From a virus, in the IMG/VR virus record IMGVR_UViG_3300023507_000005, positions 1 to 31,404 of that record: a DNA stretch of 31,404 nucleotides; one strand, 5' to 3'. The position numbers and the translations under genes are program-made. Of the stretch, positions 2,695-15,947 are shown piece by piece; position 1 is the stretch's first letter; each line of letters begins with the position of its first letter. The notes under the pieces are model-generated. The model was not told the origin of the DNA, searched no databases, and saw only the letters and a program-made list of their open reading frames with translations.

Positions 2695-2778
2695 CGGTCG
2701 GAGAGTTTGAGAAGTCGTTAAAGACGGCTGAGGAGAACAACCACGACTAACATCGAGAACACTTTGACGGAGCCAGAA

Positions 2779-3993
2779 ATGATGGCCGCCTACTACAACG
2801 AGTTCGATTTGTTCGCAGCCGCCTGGCTGCGGGAGTTGATCGAGGCCGGGATGATCCCGGAGGGAGACGTCGATGAAAGAGACATCCGAGAAGTACAACC
2901 CGAAGATCTGCGAGGATACACCCAATGCCACTTCTTCGCCGGGATCGGGGGCTGGGCCTACGCTCTCCGCCTCGCCGGCTGGCCTGACGAGCGCCCTGTT
3001 TGGACCGGCAGCCCCCCTTGCCAACCCTTCAGCGTCGCGGGCAAGGGGCTCGGAAAGCGGGATGAACGACACCTCGCCCCCGTCTGGCTCAATCTCATCA
3101 GGGAATGCAGGCCGCCTGCGATATTCGGGGAGCAAGTCGCCGCGGCCGTCACAAAGGACGGCTGGCTCGATGATCTACTCGATGCGCTGGAAGGGGCGGG
3201 TTATGAAACAGGAGCGGTCGTTGTCCCGGCCGCCGCAGTTGGCGCACCACATATCAGAAGCAGGCTGTGGTTCGTCGGAATCAGCAAGAGGGCTGTAGAT
3301 GGTACAGAAAAAGTTGAATCTGATGCTGCAAAGGTTGGTCGAAACCCGGAATCAGCTTTATTCGATAAAACTAAAATCCATGATGACACCGAGGGGGCGG
3401 GAAATCTGGAAAATTACAGCGTCGGCGCGCCGCACAGTGGAGTTGGCGGGGTGGCCGACGTCCAGGGCGAACGACGGGACTGGTGCGAAAATCCCTCCTG
3501 GCCGGCAGGGTGGGGTGGCGCTGAAAACTGCTATTCGGACGACAAGCCCAGCCCGCCTGACAGCCCGTGGCGAGATCCTGACTGGCTCTTCTGCCGGGAT
3601 GGAAAGTGGAGGCCGGTTGAATCCTCGGTTCAGCGCCTGGCTCATGGGATTCCCGGAAGCGTGGTGCAAGGCGGCGCTTTCGTGCCGGCTTCCAGCCCCC
3701 TCGCGCCGTCGCCGTCGAAAGCCGACAGACGGGTGATGCGGCTCAAAGGCTATGGCAACGCGATAGTACCGCAAGTTGCGGCGGAAGTGATCCGCGCCTT
3801 CCTGGACAGTCGCATTCGACGCTCCTGCTCCCGCGCTACCACGTCACCTGGTGGGGCGATCAATTGGCCATCGGCTGCCAGCAGCACAGCATCGAGCGCT
3901 GGCGTGAGTTCAGCGACGCGAAAATTTACGAGATGGACAAAGGGGCGCTGGAGTGGTGGCGCGTTTGGAAACCAATCGTCCTCGCCGCGGTGA
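2779..3993 (+). CDS. DNA (cytosine-5) methyltransferase, phage type, probably with an aberrant C-terminal extension
   Basis: It transfers a methyl group from S-adenosylmethionine to cytosine in DNA, probably protecting phage DNA from host restriction. From ATG 2779 (GGAG six bases upstream; a TTG at 2764 is also in frame), the SAM-binding motif FAGIGG is at residues 53-58, the catalytic SPPCQPF with Cys81 at 78-84, a motif VI variant GEQV near 117-120, and RLWFVG at 162-167. The final motif YGNAIVPQVAAEVIRAFL is at about 325-342. Residues beyond about 345 are Ser/Arg-rich, overlap another gene in a different frame, and probably exist only because the original stop at 3817 was lost. The middle of the gene overlaps a long second open frame. 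Confidence 0.9.
   Translation: MMAAYYNEFDLFAAAWLRELIEAGMIPEGDVDERDIREVQPEDLRGYTQCHFFAGIGGWAYALRLAGWPDERPVWTGSPPCQPFSVAGKGLGKRDERHLAPVWLNLIRECRPPAIFGEQVAAAVTKDGWLDDLLDALEGAGYETGAVVVPAAAVGAPHIRSRLWFVGISKRAVDGTEKVESDAAKVGRNPESALFDKTKIHDDTEGAGNLENYSVGAPHSGVGGVADVQGERRDWCENPSWPAGWGGAENCYSDDKPSPPDSPWRDPDWLFCRDGKWRPVESSVQRLAHGIPGSVVQGGAFVPASSPLAPSPSKADRRVMRLKGYGNAIVPQVAAEVIRAFLDSRIRRSCSRATTSPGGAINWPSAASSTASSAGVSSATRKFTRWTKGRWSGGAFGNQSSSPR
2873..3736 (+). other. Long alternate-frame ORF inside the methyltransferase gene (one internal TAG)
   Basis: In the +1 frame relative to the methyltransferase, an ORF starts at ATG 2873. GGAGG at 2859-2863 lies nine bases upstream, a better ribosome binding site than most genes here have. 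It runs to 3736 with a single in-frame TAG at 3296-3298. The product begins MKETSEKYNPKICEDTPNAT, is Ser/Pro-rich, and later carries LAGWPTSRANDGTG and LTARGEILTGSSAG, then GGRLNPRFSAWLMGFP. As far as I recall, similar sequences are annotated in many phages as hypothetical or methyltransferase proteins. Whether it is translated, or is a conserved shadow of the methyltransferase, cannot be decided here. Confidence 0.4.
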
Positions 3994-7116: not shown

Positions 7117-9735
7117 CTAGTATTTCCACATGGGGTTGGCGTCATCGGTCCACATGAGGTTGGCATCGTCCACCCACATGTAGTCGGCGCTGTCGCCGTA
7201 GGCGATCTGCACCCAGGGCCCGCGGGTGAGGCCCACGGCGGCCACGCGCACCAGGGTCTGCGGGCCGTAGATGGCGGTGACGGCGTAGTTGGCGGCACGG
7301 GTGTCGGCGGTGCGGGTCCAGTTGACGCCGTCCTCGGACTGCTCGATGAGGTAGTGCTCGGCGCCCGGTGCCGGCCGCCAGCTCAGCAGCATCTTGCTCG
7401 GGCCCCCCGGCTGGGAACGGGCCACCAGGCCGGAGACCACCGGCGCGGTGTAGCTGGTGTCGAGCTGGCTGCTGTTCACCGGCGGCGCGGTCTGCCCGGT
7501 TTCCGCGGTGTGGACGCTTGGATCTTCATTGATCGCCTCGACCTCCACGGTGGTGATGCCGGTGGGGCGCACCGCGAGCACTTTGGCTTCCTGCCGCCAG
7601 GTCTCGCCCCAGCCGAACACCACGTGGGTGCGCTCCTCTTCCTGCCCGGTGTAGGGGGTGAACGTCGGAGCCGAGGCGAGCACCACTTCCTGCGCAGTAG
7701 CACCCTCGGTCACCTCGATCGGTCCCTCGAGGGATCCGTCGCGCTTGCGCAGCCCGATGTAGTGGGTTTCCCCGCCCTTGTAGGTCAGCGGCTCGCTCAC
7801 GGTGAGGGTGAGCGTGTTGCTGTCCCACGCCACCGCCTCGGCAGTCTGGCCCCATTGGGGCATGTCGTGGGCGATGGCGATGAGATCTCCTGGCGCAGGG
7901 ATGAACCCCTCCATCTCTGTGGCGAACCGGATCATGCGCCGCCGGTAGCGGTTGCTGGCGGCCTGGTACATTCCCTCGCGGAAGGCCTGCTCGCGCTGCC
8001 CCACACCGAACAGCTTGATCCTCGCCGGGTTGTTGGAGGTGCCGCCGGGGAGCGTGGCCAGCACCGTTCTGGGACGCCACACCTCCTCGTCGAAATACTC
8101 CACCTCCACCGCATCTGCGGTCTGGTCGGTGGGCAGCAGGTACTCCACCCGGAAGGAGCCGCGCAGGATGTTGCGCATGGAGTAGAGCGCAACGGGCAGG
8201 CTCTTGGACTCGTCACGGGCCACGTACAGGATGCCCGCCTGCAGGAAGAGCTTGGCCCGCCCGGCGGCCAGAATCTGGCTCCAGGCATCCCACAGGGTCT
8301 GCACGTTGTCGAAGCGGCCATCGAAGGCGTCGCCGCGGCTGCTCCAGGTGGCGTCCAGGGCAAGCAGCGCGGCCAGGTCGATGCGGTTGTCCGGCAGCCC
8401 GGCGCCGTAGTCGGCCCGGGCGGCGTCGGCCAGCGCCCAGGCGATGGAGCGGGTGGCCTGTGGCGCGCTCCAGGCGCTGCCGTCCCACACCGGCAGCTTG
8501 CGGGTGGCGGTGACGCGGATCCGCCTGGAGGCCTGGGACGAGAGTTGCCCGGTGGCCCGCATGCGCATGGCCAGCAGGGTGACGTTGCCGTAGTCGGCGG
8601 TGTCGGGCAAGTAGGCGCGCAGGCCGGCCCATACCAGGTCGTGGCCGTAGCGGCTGTCGGTCTGCTCGGTGTCGGTGCGGGTTACGCGCACCTGGTAGCG
8701 GCCGGCCCCCACCGCATAGCGGAAGGTGTAGCGCTGCGGGGTGGTGGTGGCCCCGCTCACCGTCTCGGTGCCCAATACCGTCCAGCTGCCGATGGCGGCG
8801 CCGCTGTCGTCGATCTCCTGCGCCTCGATCTTAACAGTGGCGCTCACCAAGCTCAGCCCGCCGCTGTCGTTGGCGTAGTAGAGCCCGCGCGGGGCCACGA
8901 TGTCCACGCCCAGGTAGTTGGCCTGGGTGCCGGCCGCATTGGCCACGTAGGGGCCTACGGCGGCGCCGGTGGGCAGGTCCTGTCCGCTCACCTCGGTGGA
9001 GGTGGTGACATTGGCCGGGAACAGCGTCACCGAGCCGCCGGGCGGCACCACCTCGTAGGTGATCTCCTCCCACGAACTCACCGGCGTGTCGTCGATGTTG
9101 ATGACCTCGATATCGTATTCGCCCAGGCCGATGCAGAATAGCTGGTACAGAAACTGCTCGTTGCCGGAATACTCGGCATAGGGCTGGGCGGCAAAGTCGG
9201 GGTAGAACGCCAGCCGGCCATACTGCACCGGAATCGACTCCCCCAGGCGGGCATAGTTGCCCTGGGCCTGCAGGTTGTAGGTGGGCGATGGCGCCGCCAG
9301 CGACGCCATCTGCTGGGGCGCAGGCGGCTGTGGCGGAGGGACCAGGGCGTTGACCAGGGCGGTGCCGGCCAGGCCGATGCCGGCTGTCAGCAACGAAGTC
9401 CCCGCCTCGGTAGCAAACCACCCGCCCATGGCAGCACCAAGTTTCGCGCCAGCCCATGGCGCCACCACCGCCACCGCCAGCATGAGCACCAGCCGCAGGG
9501 GGTTGGAGCCGCCCTCGCCGCCCTGCGGCAGCATCACCACGATGACGATGTCGCCGTCCCGCACCACCCGGCCCCATTCGCTGCGCAGCAGCCAGCGGTC
9601 GTTGACGCGCACGATGTGGGGGCGGTCGCTGGCCGGAACCAGCTCGCGCACGGTCGCCGGCGCTTCCACCACGCGCATCTCGCGGCCCCGCATGGGATGG
9701 AACGGATCGTGGACGATGGCCAGCCCTGCTCTCAT
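7117..9735 (-). CDS. TipJ-like central tail tip / host specificity protein
   Basis: 872 residues. It forms the end of the tail and helps recognise and penetrate the host surface, like lambda gpJ. Near residues 85-140 a hydrophobic Gly/Ala segment (VLMLAVAVVAPWAGAKLGAA, and LLTAGIGLAGTALVNALVPP) resembles the gpI-like segment often fused to these proteins. GNYARLGESIPVQYGRL is the typical entry into the tail-tip domain. A fibronectin-type III-like part lies near residues 760-840 (SKMLLSWRPAPGAEHYLIE). The start overlaps the NlpC/P60 stop as ATGA. Confidence 0.9.
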   Translation of the reverse strand: MRAGLAIVHDPFHPMRGREMRVVEAPATVRELVPASDRPHIVRVNDRWLLRSEWGRVVRDGDIVIVVMLPQGGEGGSNPLRLVLMLAVAVVAPWAGAKLGAAMGGWFATEAGTSLLTAGIGLAGTALVNALVPPPQPPAPQQMASLAAPSPTYNLQAQGNYARLGESIPVQYGRLAFYPDFAAQPYAEYSGNEQFLYQLFCIGLGEYDIEVINIDDTPVSSWEEITYEVVPPGGSVTLFPANVTTSTEVSGQDLPTGAAVGPYVANAAGTQANYLGVDIVAPRGLYYANDSGGLSLVSATVKIEAQEIDDSGAAIGSWTVLGTETVSGATTTPQRYTFRYAVGAGRYQVRVTRTDTEQTDSRYGHDLVWAGLRAYLPDTADYGNVTLLAMRMRATGQLSSQASRRIRVTATRKLPVWDGSAWSAPQATRSIAWALADAARADYGAGLPDNRIDLAALLALDATWSSRGDAFDGRFDNVQTLWDAWSQILAAGRAKLFLQAGILYVARDESKSLPVALYSMRNILRGSFRVEYLLPTDQTADAVEVEYFDEEVWRPRTVLATLPGGTSNNPARIKLFGVGQREQAFREGMYQAASNRYRRRMIRFATEMEGFIPAPGDLIAIAHDMPQWGQTAEAVAWDSNTLTLTVSEPLTYKGGETHYIGLRKRDGSLEGPIEVTEGATAQEVVLASAPTFTPYTGQEEERTHVVFGWGETWRQEAKVLAVRPTGITTVEVEAINEDPSVHTAETGQTAPPVNSSQLDTSYTAPVVSGLVARSQPGGPSKMLLSWRPAPGAEHYLIEQSEDGVNWTRTADTRAANYAVTAIYGPQTLVRVAAVGLTRGPWVQIAYGDSADYMWVDDANLMWTDDANPMWKY

Positions 9736-10651: not shown

Positions 10652-11013
10652 CAGCGCACCTCCAGCACTGCCGTCACGCGCCAGTTGCGTCCGGCCACCA
10701 CCTGGGCCTTGTAGATGCCGGCGAACCGCGCCTCCACGTTGTTCTGAGCGCCGTGGCCGTCATAGAGCGAGACGTTGAACCAGGCCGAACCGCCGGCGAT
10801 CCCGGTGGTGTCGTCGTCGTACCAGCTGCGGAAGCTGGCCATTTCGGAATCGGTGAACAGCCAGGAAACCGGATACCGGTCGTTGCGGGCGCTGGTGCGG
10901 CGGCGGGCGCGGGGGGCGCCCACCTCCATGTCGGTGCGCACCACCGGGTCCACCGGCTCCAGGGCGTGCCCCTCCACCAGCGGCGCGGGCAGATTGGCGG
11001 GCCAGGTAGCCAT
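10651..11013 (-). CDS. Minor tail protein (gpM-like position)
   Basis: 120 residues. The content (TWPANLPAPLVEGHALEPVD, then VSWLFTDSEMASFRSWYDDD, then AWFNVSLYDG) is typical of the small tail-tip proteins that follow the tape measure in lambda-like siphophages. The name rests on gene order and on general likeness to such proteins rather than on a diagnostic motif. Its start overlaps the tape measure stop. Confidence 0.8.
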   Translation of the reverse strand: MATWPANLPAPLVEGHALEPVDPVVRTDMEVGAPRARRRTSARNDRYPVSWLFTDSEMASFRSWYDDDTTGIAGGSAWFNVSLYDGHGAQNNVEARFAGIYKAQVVAGRNWRVTAVLEVR

Positions 11014-12893
11014 CAGTAGGCCCCCGCGGCCCGGTTGAGGCCGTAGGTGCGCTCCAGCGCCGCCGAGACGGCACCGCCCCCACCGGTGATGTCTTGTGCA
11101 ATGGCGCCCTTGACGCTTTCCACCATCACCTCGATCACGCGCCGGCCGCCCTCGTCACGCTGAGCCACGCGGCCGCCGTTGCCAGGGCTTTCGATGACAT
11201 TGATGACCACATCGCAACCTCCACCGGTGGCCAAGGCATGATTGGGGACGATGGCGCCGCTGAGCCCTGGCACGAACAGCTCGGGCCCGCGTTCGCCCAC
11301 CAGGTAGGCGGTGCCGGCCTCCACCGGCCCGCCCGTGGCGCGGGCCGGCACGCTGCCGCCGCCGAAGATGCTGCCGATTACCTTGCCGAACCAGTCGCCG
11401 GCGCTCTTGCCGATCCCGGAGACAGCCTTGCTGAACGGATCGGTGATGGTGGTGCGAACGATGACGCGGACGAGGTCCTGCTCCAGGGCCTTGAGCACAT
11501 CGCCGAGCCGGTCGCCCTCGAGGATGGCCCGCTCGAAGGCGCTGGACATGATGCCGCCGAGCTCGGTCCAGGTGTCGCCGGTTTCCCGGGCCTGCTGCTG
11601 CACCCGCCCCAGGCCGGCCTGCTGGCGCGCCCAAAGGCGCTGGTTCTCTTCTTCCTCCCGGATGTAGATGTCGAGCACGTCGTCCCACTGGTCCCGCGCC
11701 TGCTCCGCCGTGTCCGACATGGCGTCGCGCACTTTCTGCAAGCCCGCGATCTGGCGGGCGTACTCCTCATCCAGCGCCCGGAACTGCGCCTCCACCATGT
11801 CCAGCGCGCGGTCCAGGTCATCGGCCGGCTCCTCCAGCGCCTTCATGGCCTGGGAGGTGGTGAGAGTGCGGCCGGTGAAGCGTTGCCAGGCGAGATCGGC
11901 CTCCCCCGTTTTTACGGCGAATTCGCCGACGGTATTGGCGGCCTTGCCCATGTCGAGGTTGAGACGTTTCCATGTCGCCTCTTCAAACTCCCGGTTCAAT
12001 GCCGCCAACTTTTCCTCGTCGTCACGAAACGCAGCAGCAAGAAGAGCGGCACGGGATTGCTTCCACGCAAATATCCTATCGGCGAATGTTCTCCCAACGG
12101 CGGAGAGCGCTTCTCCGGCCACATTCGCAGCGGCCGGCAGTACGTCCGCCATCCAGTGCGCAATCTCTGCCAGCGTGGGGCCCAGGGCAGAGGCCAGGTT
12201 GTTGGTGAAGGCCTCAGCAGCAGCATCCATTTCTTTCATGGCCATCTCATACTGATGCATGGCCTGCACCTGATCCTGCGACAGGGTGCGGCCAATGCGG
12301 TCGGACTCGTCGGTGAACCGCCGCAGGGTGTCGCTGCCGCCGTCCAGCATCTGGAGCAGCTTGACGCCCTCGCTGTCAAAGAGCTTCATGGCGATGCGCA
12401 CGCGGTCGGACTGATCCTCCACGTTGGCCAGGGCGTCGGCCAGCACGTAGAGCTGTTCGGTGGGCGCCAGGTCCTTCAGCCGGGCGGCGGAGAGCCCCAG
12501 CTCGTCCAGCGCCCCCACGGCCTCGCCGGCGCCCTTGGCGGCCTCGGCGATGCGGCGGGTCATGCGCTGGGCGGCCATGGCCATGGTCTGAAATCCCACG
12601 TCGGTCTGCTCGGCCGCATGCTTGAGGCGAGACCACTCCTCCACCGAACCGCCGAGACGGGTGGAGAGGTTGCTGATCTCGCTGGCGGCATTCACCGCGC
12701 CGTCGATGAGCCCCTTGAACGAGATGCCTGCGATCACGCCGCCCATGATGCCGAAGGCTTGCTTGAACACGCCGCTGGTGCGCCTGGCCTGCGCACCGAA
12801 CCGGTCCAGCTTGCGGTTGGCCTTTTCCAGCTCGGAGTGGAGACGCGAGGACTCCGCCTCGAGGCGCACTACCAGTTTTGCCAGGTCAGCCAT
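11013..12893 (-). CDS. Tail tape measure protein
   Basis: 626 residues. It sets tail length during assembly and is ejected with the DNA. The N-terminal part is a coiled coil (LAKLVVRLEAESSRLHSELE) followed by a hydrophobic stretch (FGIMGGVIAGISFKGL), and the body is long helical sequence. A Gly-rich membrane-like segment lies near residues 510-530 (FGKVIGSIFGGGSVP), with a conserved phage C-terminus after it (AYLVGERGPELFVPG). At the usual 0.15 nm per residue the tail would be roughly 90 nm, which is short. It follows the frameshifted chaperones, as in lambda G-T-H. Confidence 0.95.
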   Translation of the reverse strand: MADLAKLVVRLEAESSRLHSELEKANRKLDRFGAQARRTSGVFKQAFGIMGGVIAGISFKGLIDGAVNAASEISNLSTRLGGSVEEWSRLKHAAEQTDVGFQTMAMAAQRMTRRIAEAAKGAGEAVGALDELGLSAARLKDLAPTEQLYVLADALANVEDQSDRVRIAMKLFDSEGVKLLQMLDGGSDTLRRFTDESDRIGRTLSQDQVQAMHQYEMAMKEMDAAAEAFTNNLASALGPTLAEIAHWMADVLPAAANVAGEALSAVGRTFADRIFAWKQSRAALLAAAFRDDEEKLAALNREFEEATWKRLNLDMGKAANTVGEFAVKTGEADLAWQRFTGRTLTTSQAMKALEEPADDLDRALDMVEAQFRALDEEYARQIAGLQKVRDAMSDTAEQARDQWDDVLDIYIREEEENQRLWARQQAGLGRVQQQARETGDTWTELGGIMSSAFERAILEGDRLGDVLKALEQDLVRVIVRTTITDPFSKAVSGIGKSAGDWFGKVIGSIFGGGSVPARATGGPVEAGTAYLVGERGPELFVPGLSGAIVPNHALATGGGCDVVINVIESPGNGGRVAQRDEGGRRVIEVMVESVKGAIAQDITGGGGAVSAALERTYGLNRAAGAY

Positions 12894-14339: not shown

Positions 14340-14771
14340 TCAGCCTCGCGCGATGCGCTCGATCTTGCGCCGCAGCTGCTCTTTCAGCCGCTGTTCCATC
14401 TGGGGCCGGTAGCGGGCGAAGGTTTTGGCCAGCCAGGGCCGGGCCGCCATCTTGCTTGTGCCACGCTCCAGGAACTGCACGCCGTAGAATGCCTCGTCGC
14501 GCACGCCGATGACCACCGAGGCCCAGGTCTTGTTGTGCCCGCGGTGGATGCGGCTGCGGCGCACGATGTTCCTGCGCAGAAAGCCGGGCGCCACCAGCCG
14601 ACCCTTGTAGGTGCGGTGGGCGCGCTTGCCCACGGGCGCCGCCATCTTGATGGCCTTGAATGCCGGAGTGCTGGCATTCATCACCGCTTGCCGGAGCGCT
14701 TTCTCTGCGGTGGCGCCGCCGATCTGCTCCAGCTTCTTTTCCAGCTCGGCCAGGCCTTCCAGCTCGATCAT
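14340..14771 (-). CDS. HK97 gp10-family head-tail protein
   Basis: 143 residues. IELEGLAELEKKLEQIG at the start, then AFKAIKMAAPVGKRAHRTYKG, and the conserved YGVQFLERGTSKMAARPWLA identify the HK97 gp10-like family. It works in joining head and tail or in starting tail assembly. It overlaps the head closure gene by four bases. Confidence 0.92.
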   Translation of the reverse strand: MIELEGLAELEKKLEQIGGATAEKALRQAVMNASTPAFKAIKMAAPVGKRAHRTYKGRLVAPGFLRRNIVRRSRIHRGHNKTWASVVIGVRDEAFYGVQFLERGTSKMAARPWLAKTFARYRPQMEQRLKEQLRRKIERIARG

Positions 14772-15097
14772 CGTTCGGTCTCCCTGCAGAGCAGTTCCAG
14801 CTCGCGGTTGCGCTCGCCCACATTGACCACGCCGACGATCTCCAGCACGCGGCCGGCGAAGATCAGCCTGTCCCGCGGCGAGAGATCGGCCAGGCTGGAC
14901 TGCCAGCGCAGCTGCACCCGGTGGGTCACCTCGGCGTTCTCCGCCCTCCCCTGCACCGCCTCCTTGCCAGCCAGCGGCCAGATCGAGGCCCAGACGGTGG
15001 CCAGGTCTGCCCAGTTGTCCACGCGGCCGCCGGCATCACCCCGGGTGGGGGTGTTGCGCTGTACGGTGACGCGGTGACGGAGGCGGCCGGAGCGCAT
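14768..15097 (-). CDS. Head closure protein (SPP1 gp16 / head-tail joining family)
   Basis: 109 residues from an ATG that overlaps the connector gene stop as ATGA; a much longer frame upstream is a shadow of the connector. MRSGRLRHRVTVQRNTPTRG, then WADLATVWASIWPLAGKE and ENAEVTHRVQLRWQ, then DRLIFAGRVLEIVGVVN are the standard features of this beta-barrel family. The protein closes the head after packaging and provides the site for tail joining. Confidence 0.93.
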   Translation of the reverse strand: MRSGRLRHRVTVQRNTPTRGDAGGRVDNWADLATVWASIWPLAGKEAVQGRAENAEVTHRVQLRWQSSLADLSPRDRLIFAGRVLEIVGVVNVGERNRELELLCRETER

Positions 15098-15666
15098 CAC
15101 AGGTACCAGACGCGGTAGGGCGCCAGCAGCGAGTCCACGGCCAGCGGCAGCTCGGAGGTGATGGGCCCGGTGATCACCGCTTCGCGGTTCTCGTACCAGT
15201 GGCCGAGGAGGAGCAGGATTGCCTGCTTGATGGGCAAAGGCACGGCATCGGCGTTGCCATAGCCGGCCTGATAGTCGATCTCCACCGCGCCGGTGACGGC
15301 CTGGGTATCGGGCCAGTCGGCATCGGGCGCGACCGTGATCCGCGCCGGGGTGCTGGCAATGTCCACCAGGTAGCCGCTGGCGGCCAGCACCTGCTGCACG
15401 CCATCGGTGTCGAGGTAGCGGATCTCGTCCACCTGCACCAGGGGCGGCATGGGCAGACGAATCACGGTGTCGAACCGATCCAGCGTGAGCCGGAGGCCGC
15501 GCTGTACCAGGGCGCGGCCGGTGCGCTGTTCGACATGTGCGGCGGCGGCGTCGATGAGGTCGAGGATGAGCCCATCCTCGTCGCTGTGCTCCACGCGCAG
15601 ATGGGCCTTGGCGGTGCCGAGATCCACGGGCGCGGCAGCCGCTGGAGTGAGGGTGGTGACGGGCAT
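15097..15666 (-). CDS. Head-tail connector protein (HK97 gp6 / phiE125 gp8 family)
   Basis: 189 residues. VDLGTAKAHLRVEHSDEDGL and the following LIDAAAAHVEQRTGRALVQR form the helical core of this family. The C-terminal AVEIDYQAGYGNADAVPLPI with KQAILLLLGHWYENREAV is highly typical. It forms the ring beneath the portal. Start and stop overlap both neighbours by a few bases. Confidence 0.93.
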   Translation of the reverse strand: MPVTTLTPAAAAPVDLGTAKAHLRVEHSDEDGLILDLIDAAAAHVEQRTGRALVQRGLRLTLDRFDTVIRLPMPPLVQVDEIRYLDTDGVQQVLAASGYLVDIASTPARITVAPDADWPDTQAVTGAVEIDYQAGYGNADAVPLPIKQAILLLLGHWYENREAVITGPITSELPLAVDSLLAPYRVWYL

Positions 15667-15947
15667 CAGTTGTACCTGCGTTCGACGATGCGCACGCGGA
15701 ACGAACGCTCTGCGGTGCGGCCTGCGTTGGTGACGATGCGGTTGCGCACGGCGTAGTCGCCGCCGACAGTGCCGCCGGCGAGCCAGGCCTTCGCGCTGGT
15801 GGCATCATTCTCCGATGCGCTCAGCGTAATCCCGGCGGGGACTTCCCACGCGGAACTGGAGATCTGGTCGCTGCCGAGCCAGTCGGCCCAGTCCACCCCG
15901 TAGTCGAGCACTTCGTTGGCGGTCTTGAGATAGATGCGCTTGCTCAT
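15666..15947 (-). CDS. Small phage fibre/head adaptor-like protein
   Basis: 93 residues from ATG 15947, which shares ATGA with the beta-helix gene. IYLKTANEVLDYGVDWADWL, then SSSAWEVPAGITLS, then AVRNRIVTNAGRTAERSFRV describes a small Ig-like beta protein often found next to phage head-fibre or repeat proteins and annotated, as I recall, as a fibre adaptor. The name is tentative; the likely role is attaching the neighbouring beta-helix protein to the particle. Confidence 0.7.
   Translation of the reverse strand: MSKRIYLKTANEVLDYGVDWADWLGSDQISSSAWEVPAGITLSASENDATSAKAWLAGGTVGGDYAVRNRIVTNAGRTAERSFRVRIVERRYN

Follow-up and report, generated by a model that had tools for sequence, protein, structure and literature searches.

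The C5 cytosine methyltransferase (MTase) gene of the viral genome studied here shares its DNA with a second gene in the +1 frame. The best reading of this arrangement, which we consider likely to be correct on the grounds of sequence, is that one stretch of DNA encodes a single MTase as two polypeptides from overlapping frames. The window, i.e. the whole stretch of DNA that was analysed, is a 31.4 kb virus record (IMGVR_UViG_3300023507_000005; 31,404 nt). Frame 0 would yield the catalytic polypeptide, with SAM binding, the catalytic cysteine and motifs I-VIII and X. Translation of the +1 frame from an internal ribosome binding site would add a small polypeptide with a region of WPTP repeats and a motif IX-like block, that is, the part of the small domain that is missing in frame 0. 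The two polypeptides would probably come together as one active enzyme, a sequence-specific MTase for the modification of the phage DNA, as in M.EcoHK31I; both would be needed for methylation, the repeats would recognise the target, and the phage would presumably benefit. In the window itself the N-terminal half of the +1 gene is cut by a TAG, and the core of the small polypeptide would be made from an ATG at position 3299.

Layout of the two frames

The MTase ORF extends from 2764 to 3993 on the plus strand, as do all features of the locus given below. It can start with a TTG at 2764, but the ATG at 2779, which is preceded by GGAG, is the likelier start of the large polypeptide (2779-3993). 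Frame 0 matches phrog_363 (E 7e-80) and, over residues 81-184 only, PF00145 (67 bits; cut-off 22). Its conserved elements comprise motif I for SAM binding (FFAGIGG, 2932-2952; conserved in our alignment A2), motif IV with the catalytic cysteine (PCQ, 3016-3024), motif VI (GEQV, 3127-3138) and motif VIII (HIRSRLWFV, 3250-3276), where all residues of motifs IV and VI and the H, R and R of motif VIII are invariant in A2. In classical C5 enzymes motif VI reads ENV. Further downstream A2 contains the conserved block WRDPDWLFCRDGKWRPVE (3568-3621), from the bases of which the +1 frame reads an LTG/LNP block, and motif X (GYGNAIVPQ, 3748-3774), which lies partly past the +1 stop and aligns with the motif X of canonical and actinophage enzymes. 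The alignment to known C5 MTases covers motifs I-VIII only. The predicted structure of frame 0, for which M.HhaI is the nearest among solved structures, is confident for the C5 large domain and for a motif X helix and shows no fold at the expected place of the recognition domain and motif IX; the variable region is predicted to be disordered (pLDDT below 50). As judged from these comparisons, frame 0 has motifs I-VIII and X without motif IX. The last part of the ORF (3800-3993) makes it some 60 codons longer than the end common to most relatives, and this tail has no clear counterpart among them.

The preliminary description of this DNA had pointed to a long +1 frame with one TAG, to a strong ribosome binding site and to peptides in both frames, and all of these were confirmed in the window. 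The +1 frame runs from an ATG at 2873 to a stop that ends at 3736, with a single TAG at 3296-3298; a GGAGG (2859-2863) is located nine bases before the ATG, and the quoted peptides are found as LTARGEILTGSSAG and LNPRFSAWLMGFP in the +1 frame and as the conserved block named above in frame 0. Since the TAG is directly followed by an ATG (TAGATG; ATG at 3299), and AGAGGG (3287-3292; Shine-Dalgarno-like by its sequence alone) lies just upstream, the window has two neighbouring +1 ORFs, of 141 and 145 codons. The first (2873-3298) ends at the TAG and matches phrog_1008 (E 4e-7) and the family HMM (81 bits). The second (3299-3736), the proposed core small polypeptide, matches phrog_31772 (E 1e-20), phrog_1008 (E 2e-14) and the family HMM (118 bits). 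It contains a TWK-like block (3356-3436; family HMM positions 90-143), one WPT repeat unit recognised by the family HMM (GWPTSRAND, 3449-3475) and the motif IX-like block LNPRFSAWLMGFPEAW (3617-3664). The two frames thus differ in their PHROG matches, and the +1 frames of 24 out of 24 relatives match both phrog_1008 and phrog_31772.

The neighbouring genes suggest a siphophage-like genome or prophage. A single-strand binding protein (1397-1810) is encoded upstream of the MTase, and a tail fibre J-like protein (7117-9735), a tape measure protein (11013-12893) and a head-closure protein (14768-15808) are encoded downstream on the minus strand.

Likeness of the +1 product to parts of split methyltransferases

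We collected 80 viral loci by way of the MTase frame and observed a long +1 ORF matching that of the window; conversely, further loci collected from viral and bacterial contigs with the +1 profile contained the MTase in frame 0. The +1 ORF overlaps the MTase in one and the same phase in all 249 homologous loci, mostly over 200-340 codons, and a diverged set reached through human-gut phage contigs shares that phase in 85 of 86 loci, at G+C contents from 0.33 to 0.71. Among the 249 near loci there was no standalone +1 homologue without an MTase frame. ORF50 of Tunturi_1 was considered as such a standalone gene and rejected, because an MTase frame underlies it.

Searches with the +1 family against Pfam and NCBIfam gave no credible match, and its profile had no match in the PDB. 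Apart from a helix and hairpin (74-122), the AlphaFold model of the +1 product is poor (pLDDT 56); it places short helices, with low confidence, at the motif IX-like block, and at this model confidence a recognition-domain fold is putative. A possible functional connection came from actinophages with a split MTase, e.g. Obama12: its gp80 contains motifs I-VIII, and PTP repeats, the sequence LNAAFSEWMMG and motif X are combined in a single +1-frame polypeptide, gp79. The match of the +1 family to gp79-type proteins (actinophage ORF2) covers the repeats as well as the region of motif IX (E 1e-7), frame 0 matches actinophage ORF2 at motif X only, and motifs IX and X of canonical enzymes can in turn be aligned with the C-terminus of gp79 (P 5e-4). 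Taken together, these matches suggest that the +1 frame holds the piece missing from frame 0. More specifically, the motif IX-like block is similar to the actinophage motif IX region (P 2e-7) and weakly to canonical motif IX (P 0.008), so that the stronger link to motif IX appears to run through the actinophage proteins. The +1 frame thus seems to carry a part of the MTase that is absent from frame 0, and the evidence points to its product as the second polypeptide of the enzyme. Of the 220 loci in which both the motif IX-like block and motif X were recognised, 208 have them in different frames. Two overlapping-frame relatives (L305:2275-3289 and L306) have motif X and the motif IX-like block in one +1 ORF and motifs I-VIII in frame 0, which looks like an M.AquI-like split. 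In the actinophage MTases of Babsiella (L347) and DLane (L352) a single gene has its PTP repeats in the +1 frame first and further on in frame 0, which looks as if recombination had moved repeats from one frame to the other.

A natural precedent is offered by M.EcoHK31I. In 1995 Lee, Kam and Shaw reportedly found its small polypeptide to be encoded in an overlapping alternative frame and both polypeptides to be needed. The small polypeptide of the window would resemble it in its overlapping frame. M.EcoHK31I (YGGCCR) is a two-polypeptide C5 MTase whose large polypeptide has motifs I-VIII and X and whose small polypeptide has only motif IX, and its predicted target recognition domain (TRD) has been placed in the large subunit (PMC3404938). 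The large polypeptide of the window likewise appears to have motifs I-VIII and X without IX. However, the variable region of frame 0 looks unfolded and unconstrained in the window family (the low pLDDT is accompanied by a dN/dS of about 1), whereas the +1 repeat region is constrained. As the comparison is one by description and the recognition region is possibly placed elsewhere, we file the locus as a variant and not as a proven member of this type. The two polypeptides of M.AquI also share the C5 motifs between them, with motifs IX and X in the small subunit (PMC3404938). The window is similar in that its motifs would be split over two polypeptides and different in that motif X stays in frame 0; gp80/gp79 of Obama12 is closer to M.AquI than the window locus is.

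Alternatively, the +1 frame could be a real overprinted gene with a product other than an MTase subunit. Candidates would be a regulator, a protein acting against restriction, or a partner that binds DNA at a target of its own. The lack of a match in the three databases would fit such a protein, as would the long Ser/Pro-rich N-terminal part, which is unlike any MTase. We nevertheless regard this as rather unlikely, considering that the +1 frame always accompanies an MTase frame and was never found alone in the 249 loci, that it resembles the recognition and motif IX part of the split actinophage MTases, and that exactly this part is absent from frame 0. If the small polypeptide indeed belongs to the enzyme, a very large class of phage C5 MTases, from phages of Pseudomonadota and Bacillota, might be obligate two-frame enzymes, with frame 0 responsible for catalysis and +1 for recognising the target, a generalization to which we give slightly less than an even chance. 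In that case recombination of the DNA repeats, which are read as WPTP units in one frame and as a linker in the other, could change the specificity while leaving catalysis unbroken.

Internal start signals and the TAG codon

A Shine-Dalgarno sequence with an ATG is present in the +1 frame near motif I in 70 of 103 loci, where 21 were expected (3.3x). The recurrent signal sits at three discrete positions, and the GGAGG of the window is one of them. In phage N15 the first good +1 start, an ATG behind GGAGG, also comes late, with the core kept.

The interruption of the +1 gene by a stop in the window counts against a two-polypeptide enzyme. According to the family HMM, the TWK block is degenerate in the first +1 ORF and better preserved in the second, as LYSIKLKSMMTPRGREIWKITASARRT, where the WPT unit and the motif IX block follow it. 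In this region frame 0 reads a second motif VIII-like stretch, EGAGNLENYSVGAPHSGVGGVAD, and the G+C content falls to 0.43 in an AT-rich stretch by the TAG. Judging from this pattern, the TAG probably marks a recombination junction rather than a site of read-through; such a junction would explain the stop, and the core protein would then come from the ATG at 3299. The region 3240-3436 is AT-rich and contains a partial duplication of the motif VIII/TWK region in both frames.

The preliminary description had raised stop read-through and had proposed a check for conservation of the TAG. We found no support for it: this codon, seen in the window only, is the sole +1 stop among 96 non-redundant loci, and after the AT-rich stretch the second copy of the conserved block restarts at an ATG of its own. 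Both a conserved TAG and its read-through were therefore rejected. More generally, ribosomal frameshifting or read-through would result in a fusion and in no separate small polypeptide. A single shift would suit Obama12 and L305, where one frame has motifs I-VIII and an overlapping one has the recognition/IX/X part. In loci of the window type, however, motif X is back in frame 0 and two shifts would be required; given also the recurrent internal start signals and the uniqueness of the TAG, we consider this route quite improbable.

Double coding, selection and annotation

The absence of stops from the +1 frame was evaluated by synonymous codon shuffling of the MTase, followed by counting of the +1 stops. 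The window alone has 1 stop in 287 codons versus 4.2 expected (P = 0.02), and 45% of the shuffles attain the length of its longest open +1 run, 147 codons. By length alone its +1 frame is unremarkable; it is the homologues that make the case decisive. The 96 non-redundant loci, in regions bounded by the +1 match and thus biased toward open frames, contain 1 stop, the TAG of the window, versus 284 expected. Because of this bias we also scored 23 non-redundant loci chosen by the MTase alone over fixed MTase columns, which gave 2 stops versus 64 expected. Over MTase-defined regions the diverged set contains 8 versus 146 expected, and those of its loci with a G+C content below 0.42 contain none versus 20 expected. 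The depletion is absent from the +2 frame in the shuffled sets, and the flanking genes of the same loci have +1 stops at expectation (1259 versus 1297). A pairwise permutation test lent modest support (mean z of 2.06 in +1 and 0.91 in +2).

The preliminary description had suggested comparing substitutions in each frame, and our OLGenie-style count over 106 pairs revealed constraint in both. The two estimates of dN/dS for the +1 frame, which are rough since the estimator was home-made and the pairs were partly dependent, were 0.39 (0.33-0.46) and 0.15 (0.10-0.22) in the C-terminal block. The TWK block gave 0.74 and 0.08, and the upstream part, in which the MTase alone is encoded, gave 1.24 and 1.23. 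In the MTase frame the values were 0.20-0.39, save for the variable region near 1. Moreover, synonymous change along the MTase is lowest at the +1 TWK...LRASxRRT block and at the +1 LTASGEMLTGSS...LNPAHSRWLMGLPPEW block. In the latter, position 1 of the MTase codons, i.e. the third position in +1, is more variable than position 3, a signature located in columns 300-315, just downstream of the conserved frame-0 block at 3568-3621. The +1 frame is under purifying selection. That the open frame is a shadow, produced by high G+C or by the amino-acid and codon usage of the MTase, is hardly credible and was rejected: the ordinary length of the run in the window and the G+C content of about 0.6 at the locus are outweighed by the depletion of stops relative to the shuffles in many loci, even at low G+C, the neutral flanks, the excess of start signals, the codon-position signature and the dN/dS values.

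Of the two possibilities entertained at the outset, a real overprinted phage gene is thus borne out by the recurrent ribosome binding site and the purifying selection in its own frame. The other, that two database families are shadows of one another, holds in so far as phrog_363 and phrog_1008/phrog_31772 share the same bases, so that two sets of PHROG families describe a single DNA stretch; neither is a mere shadow, because both frames are constrained. In fact, phrog_1008 is a real family, although 363 and 1008 match one DNA in two frames.

Annotations of phage genomes rarely include same-strand overlaps of such length (200-340 codons) in which both frames are under selection. The overlap of the window type recurs in hundreds of phages, including the laboratory phages N15 and epsilon15, and usually one frame is annotated. 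A literature search, in which few subscription papers were covered, did not retrieve an earlier report of such an overlap in phages. Most records give the MTase frame only, among them those of N15 (gene 58) and epsilon15, and the PMG1 record has the +1 ORF alone. Elsewhere the +1 ORF has been annotated as 'Mte8-like' in K1 phages (K1ind1 ORF28), as 'g55 internal gene' in Paenibacillus phage Shelly and as a second 'DNA methyltransferase' in Xanthomonas phage PhiXhv-5. The K1 and Shelly proteins are the same kind of +1 ORF and belong to PHROG families 1008 and 31772; annotations of this type are functionless or read as a second 'DNA methyltransferase'. Should the +1 product be the recognition polypeptide, many phage MTases now listed as single enzymes would be only halves of an enzyme, and this could account for activity tests that failed and for specificities wrongly predicted from cloned frame-0 genes. 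In E. coli ECCTRSRTH03 (L450:2056-3225) a prophage MTase has been annotated as two broken pieces.

The streptococcal MM1-type C5 MTases (L353-L431; e.g. L351:1652-2077) were considered as a negative control and found unsuitable, for they have a +1 ORF of their own, of about 165 codons over motifs II-VIII (codon 30 to 190). It is longer than the shuffles allow in 22 of 22 non-redundant loci and often ends in SLSDILEEEVDEKYFLS; ORF14 of MM1 has been annotated at this position.
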